Assembly (NCBI RefSeq): GCF_007747995.1
Contig: NZ_CP036276.1
Coordinates: 6,376,001-6,440,000 of the forward strand
DNA: 64,000 nucleotides
Direction of reading: 5' to 3'
Origin: Symmachiella dynata
GTDB lineage: Bacteria > Planctomycetota > Planctomycetia > Planctomycetales > Planctomycetaceae
The position numbers were made by a program, and so were the translations under genes. Below the pieces are notes generated by a model. The model saw only the letters and a program-made list of their open reading frames with translations, was not told the origin of the DNA and made no database searches. Positions 590 to 11,928 of this stretch are shown in pieces (positions within the stretch are counted from its first letter, which is position 1; each line of letters begins with the position of its first letter).

Positions 590-2182
590 CTAATTGGAGT
601 CGTGAATGCGGCGAACGACTTCTGGGTCGTAGCCAGTTTGTACAAAAGTTCGCGGCCGCCAGTCGGCACGCTTTAGTTGGATCCCAAAGCGGCGAGGGTC
701 GCTCCTTTGAAGTGATGTGGTACCTGGTGCCTCGGGCTTTTGGACGTGCGAAAAAATCATGTATCGCAACGTGTCGACGCAATCGTCCTCCTTTTTCAAC
801 GGCTCATGTCGTGGACTCGCGGGGTTAAGACCTTTGCCCGATGCGCGGAGCCAACGATACTTTCGCATCTCCTTGGCCAAGTGCGGGCAGTTTTCCTTGT
901 GGATATACAATGAAGGTTGGCCAGTCAGCGGGTCGAGCTTCAAATGCTGACGAACGCACTCGATGCCGCGGTGCACATCGTTTCGGGCCGACGATGTCGG
1001 GATACCCCGCGCGGAGAATTCGTTCAGCAGGTCCGGACGCGACGGGTCGCAATATGTCGGGCCGAATTGCGCATGACCGCCGAACCAACGGAAGCGGTCC
1101 TTGATCAACTCCGCTCGAAGTTCACTGAGCAAGCCCGTATCGTCCCAGAGTTCGTCGAAGATAAACCAGCGACCAGTGCCGTCGACGTAACCCCATAGGC
1201 ACACAAACGGATGCTCCGCCGATCCGCCCCAGTCGATAGCTCGAACGTACTGCACACCATTCGGATGCGTAATGACGTTGTCGCCGACAAGATGGACATG
1301 TGGATTGAATGACTTGTAGATTTGACCGCGATACGATGCGAACTTACCTTCGCGGCGAGTTGCGACCATTTCGTCGCTGACGCTCGAAAAGAACGCGTCT
1401 TTCCATTCCTTTGAGACGGCGCTATTCGCCATCGTATTCAGGCTGTAAAACGACCAGCCCAGCGGCGGATTGTCGTACAACTCCTCGAGCTCGATGCTCA
1501 GGTCCGGGTCGATTGGCGTGCACTCAATGATCACACTGCCGGGATACCACGTGTCCCGCAGACCGCGAATGACTTCTTCGAGGATCTCCCACGGGAATTG
1601 CTCCGAAAACCACGCGCCGCCAATGCTCCGCCCCTGGAACTTCTGCCGGCGTTGCTCAGTCGATTTGAATTCGATCACCCAATTCTTGCCCGGTCGGCCC
1701 GGCCAAGGCTTCAAGGGAACATGCGAGGGCCATTCGGCCTTGCTGGACAGCCATTGCACTCGCGACCAGTCGACCAATGATGGCGGGATAAAGCGTCGCA
1801 AGCCCTGGGCCCAGCCGATGCCAATGCATTGCTCGTAGGTATCGCTGATCACCCAATAAGGGCAATCGCGGCGCGGTGGCGGCTGTTCTTGGCATAGGAA
1901 CTTGGCAACTTTGTAGGCGGCGGCCGTCGATTTGCCTGAACCGTTACCGCCGAGAAGCACACTGACCGGCGACGTCGAATCGCAGAAGCTTGATTGCATA
2001 TCACCCAGCGCGAGATTGTCTTTGCGCGGCTGGAACGTCATCAACTCGCTCGCCTTCAATTCGAGCAACTCACGAACGCGCGGATTGTTCGCGGCCGCTT
2101 CGATCATCTCCGGCGTGATCTCGCCAGACGCACGAAGTTCGCTTGTATTGCGTTGTTCGGGTTGTGGGGTGTCGTTGGTCAT
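590..2182 (-). CDS. Phage terminase large subunit
   Basis: A 530-residue packaging ATPase/nuclease that translocates phage DNA into procapsids and cuts it. Visible motifs, in order: Walker A GGNGSGKST at 78-86, a Walker B-like GGAWFSEQ with acidic residue near 194, the coupling motif VIIECTP at 217-223, and a C-terminal RNase H-like nuclease with Asp317 (AIDWGG), Asp379 (YCDPS) and the terminal DDCVDTLRY cluster at 466-473. The frame is open to 2413, but that extension is Arg/Ser/Pro-rich and overlaps the plausible zinc-ribbon gene at 2278-2472, so ATG 2182 is chosen. The small-terminase-like gene lies two genes upstream, the usual order. Confidence 0.93.
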   Translation of the reverse strand: MTNDTPQPEQRNTSELRASGEITPEMIEAAANNPRVRELLELKASELMTFQPRKDNLALGDMQSSFCDSTSPVSVLLGGNGSGKSTAAAYKVAKFLCQEQPPPRRDCPYWVISDTYEQCIGIGWAQGLRRFIPPSLVDWSRVQWLSSKAEWPSHVPLKPWPGRPGKNWVIEFKSTEQRRQKFQGRSIGGAWFSEQFPWEILEEVIRGLRDTWYPGSVIIECTPIDPDLSIELEELYDNPPLGWSFYSLNTMANSAVSKEWKDAFFSSVSDEMVATRREGKFASYRGQIYKSFNPHVHLVGDNVITHPNGVQYVRAIDWGGSAEHPFVCLWGYVDGTGRWFIFDELWDDTGLLSELRAELIKDRFRWFGGHAQFGPTYCDPSRPDLLNEFSARGIPTSSARNDVHRGIECVRQHLKLDPLTGQPSLYIHKENCPHLAKEMRKYRWLRASGKGLNPASPRHEPLKKEDDCVDTLRYMIFSHVQKPEAPGTTSLQRSDPRRFGIQLKRADWRPRTFVQTGYDPEVVRRIHDSN

Positions 2183-2277
2183 GTCAGGGGGCCTTGCGGC
2201 TGCTGGTGATATCAATTTGGCTGTCTGCGGCGACGCTGGTTGAACGTTCGTGACTGTGGTGGTTGAATGACTGGCGG

Positions 2278-2472
2278 TTAATGTCGGCCGGTGCGGCTTT
2301 GGTATTCTTCGGCTTGGCTCCATTTGGCTTGGATCTCCGCACATGCCGCGCGGATCTCTGCGGGAGTTGGATCGTGGCGACGTTTGCCGGCTTTCGCACG
2401 ACAATCGCTGCACAATCGGAAGCCCTCAGCGGTCGCGTTGGGACAGAATTTGCATTGCGGTTGATCTTCCAT
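2278..2472 (-). CDS. Small zinc-ribbon protein
   Basis: A 64-residue protein with two CxxC pairs (Cys7/Cys10 and Cys21/Cys24, CKFC and CSDC), the pattern of a zinc ribbon, followed by a charged helical tail. It sits 20 bp after the small-terminase-like gene and 95 bp before the large terminase, in the same direction. The Cys pairs and codon-like composition suggest a real gene; it could bind DNA or a packaging partner, but function is unknown. Confidence 0.6.
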   Translation of the reverse strand: MEDQPQCKFCPNATAEGFRLCSDCRAKAGKRRHDPTPAEIRAACAEIQAKWSQAEEYQSRTGRH

Positions 2473-2492: not shown

Positions 2493-2978
2493 TTATGAGT
2501 CTTGTGGTGGAGTCTGTGGGACGTCAATTTGCGTAAGTGATATCTGGTCAACGGGTTGCGATTGGTCGTCTACTGATTGACTATCGGTAGATGGTGGGAT
2601 TCCCAGAACTTCTCGAATGGCGTCGCCGATGGCGCTGTCGATTTGTTCCGGCGACGGCATCGCGCTGTTGAAGCCTGAGAACGAATTCATTTCGATGTTG
2701 ATCAATGCTTTGTCTGGCAACAGCCGTTCAGAAACCCATTTGACCGCGCTCGGCTGACCTTTCTTTGCTCGCCGAATTTGCTCCTTGATAATTTTGAGCC
2801 AGTCGTCATTGCTCACATTTTCCGCCAGGGTTCGCAGCCGATCCTCCGGCGTCGGCGGCGCCTTCTTCGGCCGACCGGGTCCGCCGCAGTTTCCCGGAAC
2901 GAACAGCCCGCGCTCATCGCGCTCGGGAGTGTTCGGTTTCGATACAGGCATTTGGTTTTCTGCGCCGTTTTCGATCAT
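2493..2978 (-). CDS. Small-terminase-like / DUF5681-type protein
   Basis: About 161 residues if it starts at ATG 2978; ATG 2951 (MPVSKPN) is equally possible because neither has a clear ribosome binding site. The frame is open to 3080, but that start lies inside the inverted repeat at 3016-3126 and the extension looks non-coding. The N-terminus carries GLFVPGNCGGPGRPKK, the short Gly/Pro/Arg motif of DUF5681-like proteins often found just before phage terminases. A helical middle (DDWLKIIKEQIRRAKKG) and a Gln/Asp/Pro-rich tail follow. The position next to the large terminase supports a DNA-recognition role in packaging, by inference. Confidence 0.65.
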   Translation of the reverse strand: MIENGAENQMPVSKPNTPERDERGLFVPGNCGGPGRPKKAPPTPEDRLRTLAENVSNDDWLKIIKEQIRRAKKGQPSAVKWVSERLLPDKALINIEMNSFSGFNSAMPSPEQIDSAIGDAIREVLGIPPSTDSQSVDDQSQPVDQISLTQIDVPQTPPQDS

Positions 2979-3015
2979 GTTGACTCGATTGGCTAGTATT
3001 ATTCGTGCTGTCACT

Positions 3016-3126
3016 TGGGACGCTTGGGACGGCTGTTTCCTATTGTGGTTACTTTCCAGCCCTATATGGTGTGTTTTCATTTGTGGAAACGTTTAACAAT
3101 AGGTGCCAAGCGTCCCAAGCGTCCCA
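3016..3126. repeat. 43-bp interrupted inverted repeat with 9-bp units between primase and small-terminase genes
   Basis: The arms are 3016-3058 and 3084-3126, with a 25-bp spacer. Each arm reads, from outside in: TGGGACGCTTGGGACG, 7 variable bases, CCTATTGT, 6 variable bases, TTTCCA. The three blocks (16, 8 and 6 bp) match exactly between arms, at identical spacing. The outer block is two tandem copies of CTTGGGACG. It could be an iteron-type replication origin (primase adjacent), a packaging site (small terminase adjacent) or an operator. There is no T-run typical of a terminator. Confidence 0.85.
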
Positions 3127-3130
3127 GCCG

Positions 3131-5338
3131 TCAGGTGAAATTGAATGATCCTGGATGTTTTTGTCGTTCGATTCGTTCCTTGATATCGCGATGCGTTTCG
3201 TTCGGATTGGAGTTTTCACCCGCCCAAATGAAACCACGTCCGTAGGCTCGCGATGGGCAAACCTGAATGCGTTTGAAGTTGCCCTTTTCGATCATCGCGG
3301 CCATTTTCTTCGCGGCGGATTGGGTCTTGAGTTTTTCACCGGCGGCTTTGTTCAGCATTTCGGCGGCGACGGCGGTGGGGATGAAAACGTGGTCCGCATT
3401 GGCGTCGTAGTGCAGCCGCTCCAATTCGTTGGCGAAGTGCTCCTCGATCAGTTCTCCTTCCTCTAGCTCGCTGTCGGCGATGTCCTGTCGTTCGGCGATG
3501 ACGGCCTGGGCTTCGGTCGGTTCGGGCAGCCGCGCGACAATCTCTCGTTCCCAGTCCCCCCATCGCGTGAACTTTGTAAGGATTGCCGGCTCGCTCCGCA
3601 GAAATGCAATCAGGTCGCCAATGATGGCCTGCCGTTGTTCCCGCACAAATCCGGCGGTGTCTTCAGACCATGTCGCGGAATACTTTGGCCTGCCCAGCTT
3701 GATTGTCACGACGCGTTGAGCAAGGTCAGTCGATAGCGACGCACCGTTGAGCGTGATGATCCAGGTAATGAGGTTAGGGCGGCTCGCCTCGCCGATGTAC
3801 AACCGTCGGCCGCTGATGACTGGCGTTGTGATGAGGCTTTCCAGTTCGGCCCATGACAGTTTGAGTGACTTGACGTTGTCGAGAATCGCGACACGCTTAT
3901 CTACGGCATCGGGGGATAACAACCGTTGTTTGATGACGGTGATATCTTCCCGTACCGAAATGTCGGGGAAGCCGCCGGCAAATTCTCCCACGGTAGTAGC
4001 CATCGTCGATTTTCCGACGCCAGTTCCGAAATCGCTGGTGATGAGGAATGCGGGACGTGCTCCCCCGGGTCCGCCCCAGATGATGGAAGCAAATAGGGCC
4101 AAGATTAAATCGCGGTCGATGTCCGTTGCGGGGGAGAAGCGATCGAGCAACGTATTAAGCGCCTTGCCATCACCTGGCTGCGGGAACTTGCATGCGTAGT
4201 AGTGCCCGTCGACTCGCGGTTCGTGGGGCAAAGTCTCGATCCCCTCGTAATCAGTCGCAGTTCGCCTCAGTTCGGAGAAGACCTCATTTTTCGTGTGAAG
4301 ACGATCGCCTCGCGAAAACGATGGCGGCATACCGGTTGCCGAACCGACCCAACCAAATAGTGATGCGGGATTGTCGAGCCAATCGATTTGGGAATCATGC
4401 TCGTGCACGAATAGTGCCGGCCCAACGCGGCGCGGCCAATCGCCAGTTGCGGCCTTGATCGTATTCAATATCTCAGGCATGGGGACCGGCGCCATACCTC
4501 CGCCAGCGATCGAAGCAGCGTTGCGGATCCGCGCGGTTGCTGCGGGTTCGTTCGTAGGTTCGGCGTTCGTCATCACGTCCGCTTCGGGAGCTCCGGCAAC
4601 GATCCGCTGCAGTTCGTCAACCGTCCCGCCAGCGTCCAGCCAGTCCGAAACGTCGCCCTTGGGCGGCAGTCCCGGCAATTCGATGACCTTGACCATCGTG
4701 GCGATGCCTGACAGCGACCTCGCGACTTTGGCGGCGTGCTCCCGGCCCGGATCGTCATTGTCGGAAATGATGGCAACCGTGCGATTCCTGAATAACGGGC
4801 AGTAGGATTTGTTCCACTTTCCAGCGCCGCCGATGTTGGTTGTCGCGACCAGCCCCATTGTGGCCAGTCGATCTGCATCCTTCTCCCCCTCGACCACGAA
4901 GACCGTTTCGGAAGATTCGGTCGCGAGCACGTCCGGCAGCCGATACAGGATCCGATTGACTCCCTTCATCGACCACGTCCAGCCACCGTTGCCATCCGGC
5001 TGACGTTGCCGAAAGTCCTTGGGGTCTAGGCGGACGGCTTGATAGAGCAGCTCGCCCATCGCGTTGCGGTAGTCATACGCGGCGATGATCCGTTTGCCGT
5101 TTCGGCTGCCGTTACAAGTCGAATCCGGAAACAACTCATTGAACGACATGCGGACCGCTTTCAGGACGTCGCCCGTCGCGCAACCGGCCTGGCATTTCAC
5201 CAACGTTTTTCCGTCATCGGCGATAGAGATGCACAAAGAATTCTTGTTATCGTCATGCGCGGGGCATTTCGCTTCCCAGCCCGATTTCGTTGTTTCGACG
5301 TCGCGGAGTCGTGAGAGAATAGGCGGCGCGTCTGTCAT
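3131..5338 (-). CDS. Phage primase-helicase (CHC2 zinc finger, TOPRIM, P-loop ATPase)
   Basis: A 735-residue replication protein. It has a CHC2 zinc finger (Cys25, His28, Cys49, Cys53), a TOPRIM catalytic core with VEGEKDAD around Glu150 and SDNDDPGRE around 192-200, and a helicase/ATPase module with Walker A GTGVGKST at 438-445 and a Walker B-like VAILDNVKS. It should synthesise primers and unwind the element's DNA. The start is ATG 5338, which overlaps the upstream stop as ATGA. The frame is open to 5896, but that stretch is Arg/Ser-rich shadow sequence across another gene. The 3' end lies 5 bp from the inverted repeat at 3016-3126. Confidence 0.93.
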   Translation of the reverse strand: MTDAPPILSRLRDVETTKSGWEAKCPAHDDNKNSLCISIADDGKTLVKCQAGCATGDVLKAVRMSFNELFPDSTCNGSRNGKRIIAAYDYRNAMGELLYQAVRLDPKDFRQRQPDGNGGWTWSMKGVNRILYRLPDVLATESSETVFVVEGEKDADRLATMGLVATTNIGGAGKWNKSYCPLFRNRTVAIISDNDDPGREHAAKVARSLSGIATMVKVIELPGLPPKGDVSDWLDAGGTVDELQRIVAGAPEADVMTNAEPTNEPAATARIRNAASIAGGGMAPVPMPEILNTIKAATGDWPRRVGPALFVHEHDSQIDWLDNPASLFGWVGSATGMPPSFSRGDRLHTKNEVFSELRRTATDYEGIETLPHEPRVDGHYYACKFPQPGDGKALNTLLDRFSPATDIDRDLILALFASIIWGGPGGARPAFLITSDFGTGVGKSTMATTVGEFAGGFPDISVREDITVIKQRLLSPDAVDKRVAILDNVKSLKLSWAELESLITTPVISGRRLYIGEASRPNLITWIITLNGASLSTDLAQRVVTIKLGRPKYSATWSEDTAGFVREQRQAIIGDLIAFLRSEPAILTKFTRWGDWEREIVARLPEPTEAQAVIAERQDIADSELEEGELIEEHFANELERLHYDANADHVFIPTAVAAEMLNKAAGEKLKTQSAAKKMAAMIEKGNFKRIQVCPSRAYGRGFIWAGENSNPNETHRDIKERIERQKHPGSFNFT

Positions 5339-5706: not shown

Positions 5707-6222
5707 TTATGCTGTAATGCGTTCCGTCTGCTGGGGGCGTTTTCCTTCGTGGACGTCTCGAACAAAACGCTCGAGCATTTTGAGGGTCAATCGCTCCGCA
5801 TAACGACGATTCGGCGCGAAGATGAAGTGCACGCCGTAACGTTGCATCCACGCGATAGTGCTGCCGACAACTGATGCCGGCTCGACTTTTGTCCAATAGT
5901 CCCCTTCGACGATGCAGTCGAGCGGCGCCTCAATCATCACGACCGCGAACTCAAATTTGGACATGCGCTCAAGTTCCCGAACAAATCGCTCTCGAGAGTG
6001 CCCGATACAACTCAGGAAATCTCCGGCTGATTTGCGCTCTATACAGATTCGGTCGCTGTAGTCCTCATGCTCCGTCGCGGCGCTGTAATCGCCAGTCGCC
6101 AGCGTTTGCACGCGTGTCTCAACAGTCGACCGCGAAAAATCAAACGGCAGTTGCTCGCGAGTGTCGATCAATATCCACCACAAGAGGAATTCATGTATTC
6201 GGCGTTGCGGAGGTGCGCTCAT
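5707..6222 (-). CDS. ERCC4-type (XPF/Mus81-like) nuclease
   Basis: A 171-residue protein with the metal-dependent active-site pattern of the ERCC4 fold: Asp20-Thr-Arg22-Glu23 (IDTREQLPF), Asp45 (TGDY), then Glu62-Arg-Lys64 with Asp68 (IERKSAGDF). These nucleases cut branched or flapped DNA, and phage versions probably act in recombination or replication-fork processing. The domain fills the protein, with no attached helicase or HhH module. Its start overlaps the upstream stop by 4 bp (ATGA). Confidence 0.88.
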   Translation of the reverse strand: MSAPPQRRIHEFLLWWILIDTREQLPFDFSRSTVETRVQTLATGDYSAATEHEDYSDRICIERKSAGDFLSCIGHSRERFVRELERMSKFEFAVVMIEAPLDCIVEGDYWTKVEPASVVGSTIAWMQRYGVHFIFAPNRRYAERLTLKMLERFVRDVHEGKRPQQTERITA

Positions 6223-6488
6223 CGTTGGCCCTCCTCACGTTGGCGGCGCAGAAAATCCAACAACTCGGACCGCTCGTATATGATCGATTTACCAACGCGA
6301 CTGCCTACGATTTCGCCACGGTATCGGGCTTCGGCGAGTTTGTGTTTGGCGACGTCAAGAAGTTTGGCGGCGTTGGCTTCATTGATCGCCAGTTTTTCGG
6401 CCGCAATCAGGCTCGCGTCTTCGCGGATCGATTCGAGCGTCTCGTGCACTGCGGCGCGGATTTCGTCGATAGGGACTTCTACGTGCAT
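6219..6488 (-). CDS. Excisionase-like helix-turn-helix DNA-binding protein
   Basis: An 89-residue protein. The N-terminal half is a charged helix (MHVEVPIDEIRAAVHETLES); the C-terminal half has the winged-helix arrangement of MerR/excisionase HTH proteins: a helix entered at INEANAAKLL, a recognition helix around KHKLAEARYRGEI, and a wing ending SIIYERSELLDFL. These proteins direct integrase during excision or act as small repressors. It overlaps the ERCC4 nuclease start by 4 bp and the upstream small gene by 10 bp. Confidence 0.75.
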   Translation of the reverse strand: MHVEVPIDEIRAAVHETLESIREDASLIAAEKLAINEANAAKLLDVAKHKLAEARYRGEIVGSRVGKSIIYERSELLDFLRRQREEGQR

Positions 6489-7876: not shown

Positions 7877-7918
7877 TTCGTAATGCGTAGGTCAAGAGTT
7901 CAAGTCTCTTCGGCGGCT
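7877..7918 (+). other. attR-type attachment site: displaced 3' half of tRNA-Thr(CGT)
   Basis: The segment reads as the right half of a tRNA: anticodon loop TTCGTAA (anticodon CGT, 7879-7881), 3' side of the anticodon stem TGCGT, variable loop AGGTC, T stem/loop AAGAG-TTCAAGT-CTCTT, acceptor strand CGGCGGC and discriminator T. The 5' side of the anticodon stem is absent: the bases before the loop (CTCAGG) cannot pair with TGCGT. A truncated tRNA with a normal 3' half is the expected scar of integration into a tRNA gene. Intact tRNA-Thr should lie at the left end of the element. Confidence 0.85.
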
Positions 7919-7923
7919 CTGCA

Positions 7924-9332: not shown

Positions 9333-10187
9333 ATGTTGAATCGCTATCAGAGCCGGATATTGTTTGCCGGACTTTTGTCGTTGTTGGTTTTAAACGGGGC
9401 CATGACGGCATATGCTCAGGAAGCCCAGCAAACGCAGGAAAAACAAACGCCCGAACATTTAGTCAAGATTTATCGCGTCAAACATCAGGACGCTTCGGGC
9501 TTGATGTCTACAATCGCTAGGATCGTTGAACACTCCGACACGTCTAAAACCGTCCGAATTGCAGTGGATCACAATACCAAATCACTGATTGTCTCGGGCG
9601 ATGAAAAAACGCAGAAATTAGTGGGGAGCTTGTTACAAAGCCTCGATGTCGAACCCAAAAATCTTGAACCAAATGAACCCGCCGCGCGGGACGTCATGAT
9701 TCGCATCGTCTGGTTGGTGGACGAGAAGCTCGTCGAGGGGGACGCGACCGCGATTCCGCCAGACTTGATTCCCACGGTCGAGAAACTGAGTACAAAATTT
9801 GGCCTAGGCAAGCTCGTGACGGCCGGACAAATCATCATCAACCAACACGTGACTCAACAAACGCAATTTGATGGGAGCGGGACCGCGGCGATACAAGGGA
9901 AAAGCGAATTCAAAGTCCGCGGAACGTCAAGATTTAAAGATGATCAAGTTGCTGAACTTGAGGTACATGTGCAAACCACCTCTTTAAGTATTGAACGATC
10001 ACCCGTGGTGCAACAGATGGGTGCTTCGAGAAAAGCGACATGCGAACTCGCCTCGAAAATCTCAGCACCGATTGGACGCCCCGTCTTCTTCGGCATGGCG
10101 CCGATTGAGTCCAAAACATCCCTATTCGTCGTACAAGTCCTCGACGCCAATTCCGTGGCCGACGAAACGGCCCGCTCAGAAAAATAG
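9333..10187 (+). CDS. Exported protein with secretin N-domain-like fold
   Basis: A 284-residue protein with a signal peptide (residues 1 to about 28, cut near AYAQ) and a region at about 42-105 (VKIYRVKHQDASGLMSTIA, then VDHNTKSLIVSG) matching the repeat seen in secretin N1/NolW domains. The remainder (WLVDEKLVEG onward) is beta-rich with no recognised domain and no secretin pore. It begins 68 bp after the anti-sigma gene in the same direction, so it is probably part of that operon, as the regulated target or part of the signal-sensing branch. Confidence 0.7.
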   Translation: MLNRYQSRILFAGLLSLLVLNGAMTAYAQEAQQTQEKQTPEHLVKIYRVKHQDASGLMSTIARIVEHSDTSKTVRIAVDHNTKSLIVSGDEKTQKLVGSLLQSLDVEPKNLEPNEPAARDVMIRIVWLVDEKLVEGDATAIPPDLIPTVEKLSTKFGLGKLVTAGQIIINQHVTQQTQFDGSGTAAIQGKSEFKVRGTSRFKDDQVAELEVHVQTTSLSIERSPVVQQMGASRKATCELASKISAPIGRPVFFGMAPIESKTSLFVVQVLDANSVADETARSEK

Positions 10188-10205
10188 CGTCGGGTGATGG
10201 GCAGC

Positions 10206-10282
10206 CGTAGGTCATGCTGTGCATGACGACACTCGCCAATGCCACCTCTTCCCAAGCAACGTCATGCACAGCATGACCTACG
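10206..10282. repeat. REP-like inverted repeat pair, probable bidirectional terminator
   Basis: A 23-bp sequence at 10206-10228 recurs as its exact reverse complement at 10260-10282, 31 bp apart. Each unit contains GTCATGC-TGT-GCATGAC, itself a hairpin. The nested arrangement resembles REPIN-type mobile palindromes. It lies between two convergent genes, where it may also end transcription from both sides. Confidence 0.8.
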
Positions 10283-10284
10283 AA

Positions 10285-11928
10285 CTAGTGCTCCTCGTCG
10301 ACCTTGCGGCGAAGGAGCATTTTTAGTTCGTTCATGCCCAGCAGCGTCGCAGCGGCATAATAAACGATGACCGATACCACGACCGGTATCACCACGCTCA
10401 GCACGCGGGATGGGATTCCTTGGGCCTCACCGCACATCCACATGGCGAGAAAGCATGCTGCCGACATCACGGCGGTTGCGATACCGGATTTGAGGATAGT
10501 TCCCCACAAGCGGCGGCCGTCGACCTGTCCGGCGCGGGATTGGATCATCCACGTTAGCACAAGCACTTGTAGCGTGGCGGAAATCGTGGTCGCGTACGCC
10601 AAGCCTTCTCCGCCCAGCGGCCAGATCAATGTCAGATTCAGTGCCAGATTCACACCCACGCTTGCTAACCCCACTCGGAGGGGTGTCGTACGGTCATCGA
10701 GCGCATAATACGCCCGGTATAAAATCAATTGCCCGCAATAGGCCCAAACGCCGCAGCCATACGCGGCGATCAACCCAGCCGTGCGCGCCGAGTCACCGGC
10801 ATCGAATTCGCCATATTCAAACAAGGTTGTCGCCAGCGGTCGCGCCAGCAGTACTAAACCCACACTGGCGGGAAAACCGATGGCGACCACCAACCGCAGT
10901 CCCAATGTCAAATCGTGCCGCAAGAGGTCATAGCGTTGCTGTGCCGCATGCCGCGCGAGCAGGGGAAACAACACCGTGCCCAGTGCGACGCCAAACACAC
11001 CGAGCGGGAATTGGTAGAGCCGCTGGGCATAATAGAGCGCCGCTGCTGCCCCCTCCTGAAGTGGCGGATTCTCTAAAAACCGGGCAAAGCCCCAGGCAAT
11101 CATTCGGTCCGCGAGGGTATTGATCAGCGTGGTCGACATGCCCAACATGACCGGCAACGTGGCCCACACGATTTCGCGAACGCGGGGCATCGCTGAACTC
11201 CAGTCCGTGCGAAAGTGAAAGCCATATTTTTTGAGCAGCGGCCACTGCATGGCGACTTGCACCCCACCGGCAATGACAATGGCAACGGCGATCACATAGG
11301 CCTGACTCAGCGCATCGGGAGCGAAAAACGGTGCGACCAACCACAACGTGGCGATCCAAAACAGATTTAACATCACCGGCACCAAAGCGGGTAACGTAAA
11401 ATGTCCCAACACGTGTAGCACCGCACTCACCTGCGCAGCCAGGCAGATCAAAATCAGATAAGGCAACATAGCTGCGGTGAGGCCCAAGAGGATGTGGATG
11501 TCCGTGTCGTGACTACCCCATTTGAGCAGCCCCCAGATCCCGAGTTCACCGACAAGCACCAAGGCGGTCAAAGAAACGGTCAACAGCGCAAAGACGGCGC
11601 TGACGAGTCTCCAGACGTTTTCGCGATCCGGTTTTTGCAGTTCCCGCGTGAGCACAGGCAGGAACGATGCGGAGAGGGCTCCCTCGCCAAACAGACGCCG
11701 AGCGAGATTGGGAATGCTGAAGGCAACAACAAAGTGGTCGGCGATTGGAGTCAGACCAAACAGTGCGGCCATGCCCATGTCGCGGATCAGACCTAAAACC
11801 CGACTGAGCAATGTGCAAAGGCTGACGATGCGTAGTCCCGAAAAGAGCCGTTGCCGATGCTGATCGGGAGCGTCCGCTTCACCACCGACGATACCGGATT
11901 CAGCCGCAGTTTCAGAGGGATTCTGCAC
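10285..11928 (-). CDS. murJ: Lipid II flippase MurJ
   Basis: About 547 residues, a polytopic MVIN/MOP-superfamily protein that flips lipid II across the cytoplasmic membrane for peptidoglycan synthesis. Family signatures include SLCTLLSRVLGLIRDM near the N-terminus, IPNLARRLFGEGALSASFLP, YYAQRLYQFPLGVFGVALGT and LYRAYYALDDRTTPLRV. Around 14 hydrophobic segments are visible. No ATG precedes the conserved region; GTG 11928 gives a normal length, and the preceding gene stops 23 bp upstream. The 47-residue polar N-terminal lead is longer than usual. The C-terminus abuts the REP-like repeat. Confidence 0.92.
   Translation of the reverse strand: MQNPSETAAESGIVGGEADAPDQHRQRLFSGLRIVSLCTLLSRVLGLIRDMGMAALFGLTPIADHFVVAFSIPNLARRLFGEGALSASFLPVLTRELQKPDRENVWRLVSAVFALLTVSLTALVLVGELGIWGLLKWGSHDTDIHILLGLTAAMLPYLILICLAAQVSAVLHVLGHFTLPALVPVMLNLFWIATLWLVAPFFAPDALSQAYVIAVAIVIAGGVQVAMQWPLLKKYGFHFRTDWSSAMPRVREIVWATLPVMLGMSTTLINTLADRMIAWGFARFLENPPLQEGAAAALYYAQRLYQFPLGVFGVALGTVLFPLLARHAAQQRYDLLRHDLTLGLRLVVAIGFPASVGLVLLARPLATTLFEYGEFDAGDSARTAGLIAAYGCGVWAYCGQLILYRAYYALDDRTTPLRVGLASVGVNLALNLTLIWPLGGEGLAYATTISATLQVLVLTWMIQSRAGQVDGRRLWGTILKSGIATAVMSAACFLAMWMCGEAQGIPSRVLSVVIPVVVSVIVYYAAATLLGMNELKMLLRRKVDEEH

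Follow-up and report, generated by a model that had tools for sequence, protein, structure and literature searches.

Most phage and satellite replication origins are unmapped. In phage P4, the alpha protein is a fused primase-helicase whose C-terminal domain binds short origin iterons (GGTGAACAG), and two separate sites, ori and crr, are used. Experimentally shown PICI origins, such as that of EcCICFT073, consist of an A+T-rich segment with iteron sets on both sides, located immediately downstream of the replication gene (PMC6092414). Origins are bound by the C-terminal domains of SaPI Rep and Cch2 (PMC7581432), and in SaPIs the opposite repeats load two hexamers (PMC9894130). At the putative origin of SCCmec Cch2, repeats just 3′ of the helicase operon are bound by the Cch2 C-terminal domain (PMC7581432); for NrS-1 polymerase, from a deep-sea phage, recognition sites on both strands were suggested as the origin (PMC7102993).

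Here we describe a dyad in a window (the whole stretch of DNA analyzed, 64,000 nucleotides) of the Symmachiella dynata genome. Judged from sequence, it is very probably a PICI/SaPI-type replication origin, that of a 15.5-kb tRNA-integrated phage-satellite-like element. As in PICI/SaPI origins (PMC6092414, PMC7581432, PMC9894130), opposed iteron sets enclose an A+T-rich middle immediately 3′ of the primase/initiator gene, a position also found in relatives. The element itself is likewise small and tRNA integrated, with an integrase, a replication gene, and a TerS-like gene, and the helicase fold resembles SaPI PriRep1. Unlike PICIs and SaPIs, the dyad has 9-bp TTGGGACG iterons, a zinc-TOPRIM part is fused to the helicase, the element also has TerL, and the host is a planctomycete. 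The features, in window coordinates unless stated, are as follows.

590..2413, minus strand: terminase large subunit (TerL).
2493..2981, minus strand: TerS-like protein, a weak DUF5681 match below the Pfam cutoff; the start is tentative, probably 2981 or 2954.
3014..3031, plus strand: left iteron set, two tandem exact copies of CTTGGGACG (3014-3022 and 3023-3031).
3032..3101, no strand: A+T-rich center of 70 bp, 37% G+C versus 55% in the element flanks; presumed melting region.
3039..3046, plus strand: left copy of the inner box CCTATTGT.
3096..3103, minus strand: right copy of the inner box, ACAATAGG as read on the plus strand.
3102..3128, minus strand: right iteron set, its outer end 2 bp from the primase stop codon.
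3102-3110, minus strand: degenerate third copy of the right set, CTTGGCACC.
3111-3119, minus strand: exact copy CTTGGGACG of the right set.
3120-3128, minus strand: copy GCTGGGACG of the right set.
3131..5338, minus strand: primase-helicase of 735 amino acids, presumed initiator; the frame is open to 5896.
3148..3472, minus strand: C-terminal winged-helix domain (about residues 623-730, from AlphaFold models), presumed iteron reader.
5707..6222, minus strand: ERCC4-type nuclease.
6219..6488, minus strand: HTH_17 protein, excisionase/AlpA-like.
7877..7920, plus strand: attR, 44 bp identical to the 3′ end of the tRNA-Thr gene.
Genome position 6368349, outside the window: attL, the 3′ end of the tRNA-Thr(CGT) gene.

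Direct reading and a repeat search agree on tandem 9-bp repeats in two inverted sets at 3014-3128, the outermost iteron starting 2 bp past the primase stop codon. The sequence-only reading had placed the structure at 3012-3135, coordinates that direct reading bears out, and its 16-bp (TGGGACGCTTGGGACG), 8-bp (CCTATTGT), and 6-bp (TTTCCA) blocks are indeed found in both arms at equal spacing; the last forms a shorter inverted pair, TTTCCA/TGGAAA, inside the dyad center. The repeat search gave arms of 31 nt, 3016-3046 and 3096-3126, which are 84% complementary and score 21 (26 matches minus 5 mismatches). The arrangement had been called too regular for chance; indeed, when the 64-kb window was dinucleotide shuffled 60 times, no inverted repeat scored above 19. 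We also agree that no gene explains the dyad: an open reading frame at 2493-3080 does run over the left arm, but it has most likely been extended too far. A single other palindrome of the window outscores the dyad, at 23, near 10243. It spans 10205-10285 (GTAGGTCATGCTGTGCATGACG ... CGTCATGCACAGCATGACCTAC), between genes ending at 10187 and 10285, and is perhaps a bidirectional terminator.

A long inverted repeat right past a stop codon could also act as RNA, forming a hairpin at which transcripts end or are processed between replication genes and packaging genes. We regard this as exceedingly unlikely. The arms are far apart, with 49 nt between them, and each arm is itself a tandem repeat; the short G+C-rich hairpin and following T run of an intrinsic terminator are absent, Rfam gave no match, and the center varies in length from 36 to 117 among relatives. 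A MITE or other small inserted repeat would account for a 115-bp unit with inverted ends, but scarcely any probability attaches to it: the dyad is a single copy in the 7.77-Mb genome, where a dispersed repeat should have several, a target duplication is not clear, and the position is fixed at primase stop codons across phages. The single copy likewise speaks against the ordinary dispersed repeat that the sequence-only reading had named as its own refutation.

The gene ending at the dyad encodes a zinc/TOPRIM primase part, a D5/NrS-1-like helicase, and a C-terminal winged helix. In Foldseek searches with the full AlphaFold model (mean pLDDT of 70, from seven sequences), the C-terminal region of NrS-1 polymerase ranked top, with double-stranded DNA-bound PriRep1 and the pox D5/E5 helicases close behind. 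Modeled alone, the C-terminal 131 residues reached a pLDDT of 85 and showed the helix-strand-helix-helix-strand-strand order of a winged helix; the fold matches were generic, and among them no replication initiator stood out. A profile search of PDB sequences with the primase gave no match. A presumed helicase initiator with a C-terminal DNA-binding domain, as at PICI/SaPI origins, is present here in predicted structure only. NrS-1 polymerase is the best Foldseek match for the helicase part, but its sites are single 8-nt sequences rather than tandem sets and its primase domain is of the AEP type (PMC7102993). SCCmec Cch2 differs in having three direct 5-nt iterons, with no flanking inverted set needed, and a separate primase-polymerase (PMC7581432). 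As with P4 alpha, a fused primase-helicase is paired with the element's own short iterons, although the iteron sequence is different.

Eighteen other genomes of the bacterial family encode homologues of the primase, with identities of 36 to 54% for the better ones. By eye, a dyad with drifted iterons sits at the stop codon in 9 of the 14 readable family homologues; in the other five (L300, L304, L305, L306, and L308), none was seen within 330 bp. Absence of the dyad beside the same gene in relatives had been named as a refutation of the sequence-only reading; it is mostly kept, at the same place. The repeat words drift in the family (TTGGGAC, TTAGGAC, TTAGTAC), and both arms change together: TTGGGACA in L299, TTAGGACG in L298 and L301, TTAGTACG in L315, and GGGGACGAA in L302, among others. 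In genome G152, a second primase has TTGGAACGG. Opposite arms match best within their own genome (sum of 146 versus a shuffled mean of 122.7 and a maximum of 144 in 20,000 shuffles; P of about 5e-5). The inner TATTGT/ACAATA pair is retained in the window and in L298, L301, and L315, although the iterons differ. In both L298 and L315, an iteron (TTAGGACGC and TTAGTACGC) takes in the TAG stop codon of the primase, so that the gene runs into the presumed origin.

Botrimarina L190 and Pirellulales L197 retain TTGGGACG iterons where the primase gene stops, but their inner pairs are different. In L197, a Prim-Pol domain replaces the zinc-TOPRIM part found in the window and L190, while helicase, C terminus, and dyad are conserved; the helicase and C-terminal domain are thus what remains linked to the dyad. 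Among 169 other genomes searched in the order, none has the strict TTGGGAC dyad, because the iterons drift; the dyad-bearing relatives were located via the protein rather than by a strict DNA pattern.

No relatives of the whole primase were found in viral contigs, and we therefore used DNA patterns and whole-genome searches. IMG/VR was scanned for a palindromic arrangement of two TGGGAC words, spaced by 9 bp, opposite two GTCCCA words; 48 contigs matched with gaps of 60 to 90, 17 with gaps of 30 to 59, and 35 with gaps of 91 to 120, with some overlap. A stricter pattern gave 23 loci in GTDB genomes, mainly Planctomycetes, Verrucomicrobia, and Lentisphaerae. With genome loci included, TGGGAC dyads were found at 112 loci, or 90 distinct sites, with the consensus T-TGGGAC-R-N; the center is lower in G+C than the flanks in 74 of these 90 sites. 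A random hexamer in the identical pattern form gave 0 matches in the one such control run. The reversed pattern, CAGGGT, was tried as a negative control and matched 73 contigs; it proved to be another 9-bp iteron dyad class rather than a null. The second iteron class, CAGGGTNNN with 60- to 90-bp centers (viral contigs L108-L180), lies 3′ of a primase cluster in 58 of 60 proteins. Exact 18-mer matches at L049, L050, L053, L054, L059, and L062 were, on inspection, unrelated coding repeats.

When open reading frames around 73 dyads were clustered, the dominant neighbor was a primase-helicase cluster (44 loci); of the 46 proteins in it, 42 have the dyad at the 3′ end, often 2 to 11 bp from the stop codon. 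Other protein types adjoin dyads at that place: VapE, DUF927 with a Cch HTH domain, AAA_25, and the phrog_21086 type. BLAST revealed no C-terminal domain common to all TGGGAC-associated primase types; unrelated primases may have this word in common by convergence, through a host factor, or through reader domains whose divergence exceeds what BLAST can detect. By eye, Yersinia phage YeP5 (AGACAACCT), APSE-1 (GTAACAACC), and Synechococcus phage MinM1 (TGTGAG type) each have a dyad close behind the 3′ end of the primase gene, and a TAACACAGC array lies several hundred base pairs beyond the primase in Salinibacter phage M8CR30-2. Also by eye, Alteromonas, Idiomarinaceae, and Salicola phages have more complex arrays (GGTTCAC, GGTACAC, and GGGGACA) after the primase; no dyad was seen there in Bordetella phage PY223. 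Of 39 primase loci from across the phylum, only 10 have their best inverted repeat downstream of the primase, with about 3 expected. In two planctomycete-phylum genomes (L284 and L288), the primase gene is directly followed by a large multicopy array of AGGTGTAGT iterons, which would make a good second model origin.

TGGGAC dyads also occur without an adjoining primase, as chromosomal sites in Lentisphaerae MAGs (L183, L184, L186, L192, L195, L202, and L203). One such MAG (CAITYL) has six contigs with TGGGAC dyads away from any primase, several of the dyads being at ordinary chromosomal genes. These are perhaps a different dispersed repeat.

The same surveys bear on packaging. In the window, the TerS-like and TerL genes directly follow the dyad, and of the 25 dyad loci with a TerL-like protein, 16 encode it ≤1.5 kb from the dyad, as expected if the TerS-like protein bound repeats upstream of its own gene and TerL cut there. 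However, no TerL-like protein was found in 48 of 73 dyad loci, many of them short; in G152, the dyad stays with the primase, followed by a zinc-ribbon-like protein and a tape-measure gene with no adjoining terminase; APSE-1, YeP5, and the Salinibacter phage have other genes beyond the dyad; and iteron drift is tied to the primase homologues. Across genomes, it is the primase rather than the terminase that the dyad accompanies, the reverse of the linkage expected of a pac/cos site, and we therefore consider a packaging role highly improbable.

The dyad also fills the gap ahead of the leftward terminase operon, where an HTH or zinc-ribbon protein might repress that operon via the repeats. Iteron initiators often repress adjoining genes, so a double role is plausible. 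That the dyad is solely an operator or autoregulatory site seems very unlikely to us: it is at the primase 3′ end even where the gene beyond is convergent (L055, L061, and L190), and a pure operator leaves unexplained both the two inverted sets around an A+T-rich center and the tie to a primase-helicase. Of the three roles offered by the sequence-only reading, then, an iteron replication origin is strongly supported, a packaging site is disfavored, and an operator is possible as a side function only.

Layout, recurrence, and co-drift can be read from the DNA itself; for binding, loading, melting, and initiation, we infer the PICI/SaPI mechanism because all the sequence hallmarks of such origins are present in the dyad. 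We imagine that the primase-helicase recognizes the iterons through its C-terminal winged helix and that their inverted orientation would set two helicase hexamers head to head. The hexamers would then melt the A+T-rich center, perhaps aided by the inner CCTATTGT boxes, and the zinc-TOPRIM part would make primers, with the excised circle replicated by the host polymerase. As iterons and C-terminal domain drift jointly, each element would come to have an origin specificity of its own. The dyad had been proposed as an undescribed control site of this phage group. The layout is that of the published PICI/SaPI origins; for the sequence class, we found no description in the searchable literature (8-mer and phage-origin searches), most subscription papers being outside its coverage.

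One can envision a single large, largely unrecognized class of origins, in which inverted sets of iterons of about 9 bp lie 3′ of primase-helicase genes in phages and satellites, with the word read by a fast-diverging C-terminal winged helix, a slower-changing inner box (CCTATTGT), and primase domains that are exchanged while reader and origin are conserved. This is a tentative proposal, slightly more apt to fail than to hold; the iteron words that we would place in the class include TTGGGACG, TTAGGACG, TTAGTACG, TTGGAACG, CAGGGTGTG, AGACAACCT, GTAACAACC, AGGTGTAGT, and others. If it holds, origins could be called from sequence alone and the code read from co-variation. The layout, which has been described as specific to PICIs, would extend to full phages; this spread beyond satellites is the interesting part and deserves systematic study. 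If the window dyad is an origin, thousands of genomes could be searched for theirs in the stretch immediately downstream of the primase-helicase gene, one gene plus about 120 bp might suffice for a minimal planctomycete replicon, and the joint drift of iterons and C-terminal domain would be a natural data set for the recognition code.

What kind of element carries the dyad? It is a 15,528-bp island bounded by 44-bp perfect direct att repeats at the tRNA-Thr gene, with a tyrosine integrase close to attL. One congener has a single att copy, with the left flank 92% identical and the right flank matching for 20 further bases, as expected of an unoccupied integration site, and neither of two congeners has a TerL match. 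Pfam and PHROG profile scans of the element's open reading frames identified terminase, primase, ERCC4 nuclease, HTH_17, pentapeptide-repeat, and AlbA proteins and recognized no portal, capsid, tail, or head genes. It had been taken for a prophage; with no structural genes recognized, it looks like a phage satellite and is better called satellite-like, or a prophage with its structural genes lost. About 15 kb long and tRNA integrated, with an integrase and a primase-rep gene and, in profile scans, no full structural set, the element resembles a PICI as a whole; TerL within it is atypical of classical PICIs.

The element has further genes of note on its opposite strand, encoding a pentapeptide-repeat protein and a Schlafen/AlbA_2 protein (L003:15632-18055), possibly cargo or interference genes. 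In the related element of G152 (L205:5649-7283), a tail tape-measure gene, unusual cargo for a small element, comes shortly after the dyad, and an integrase lies further on.
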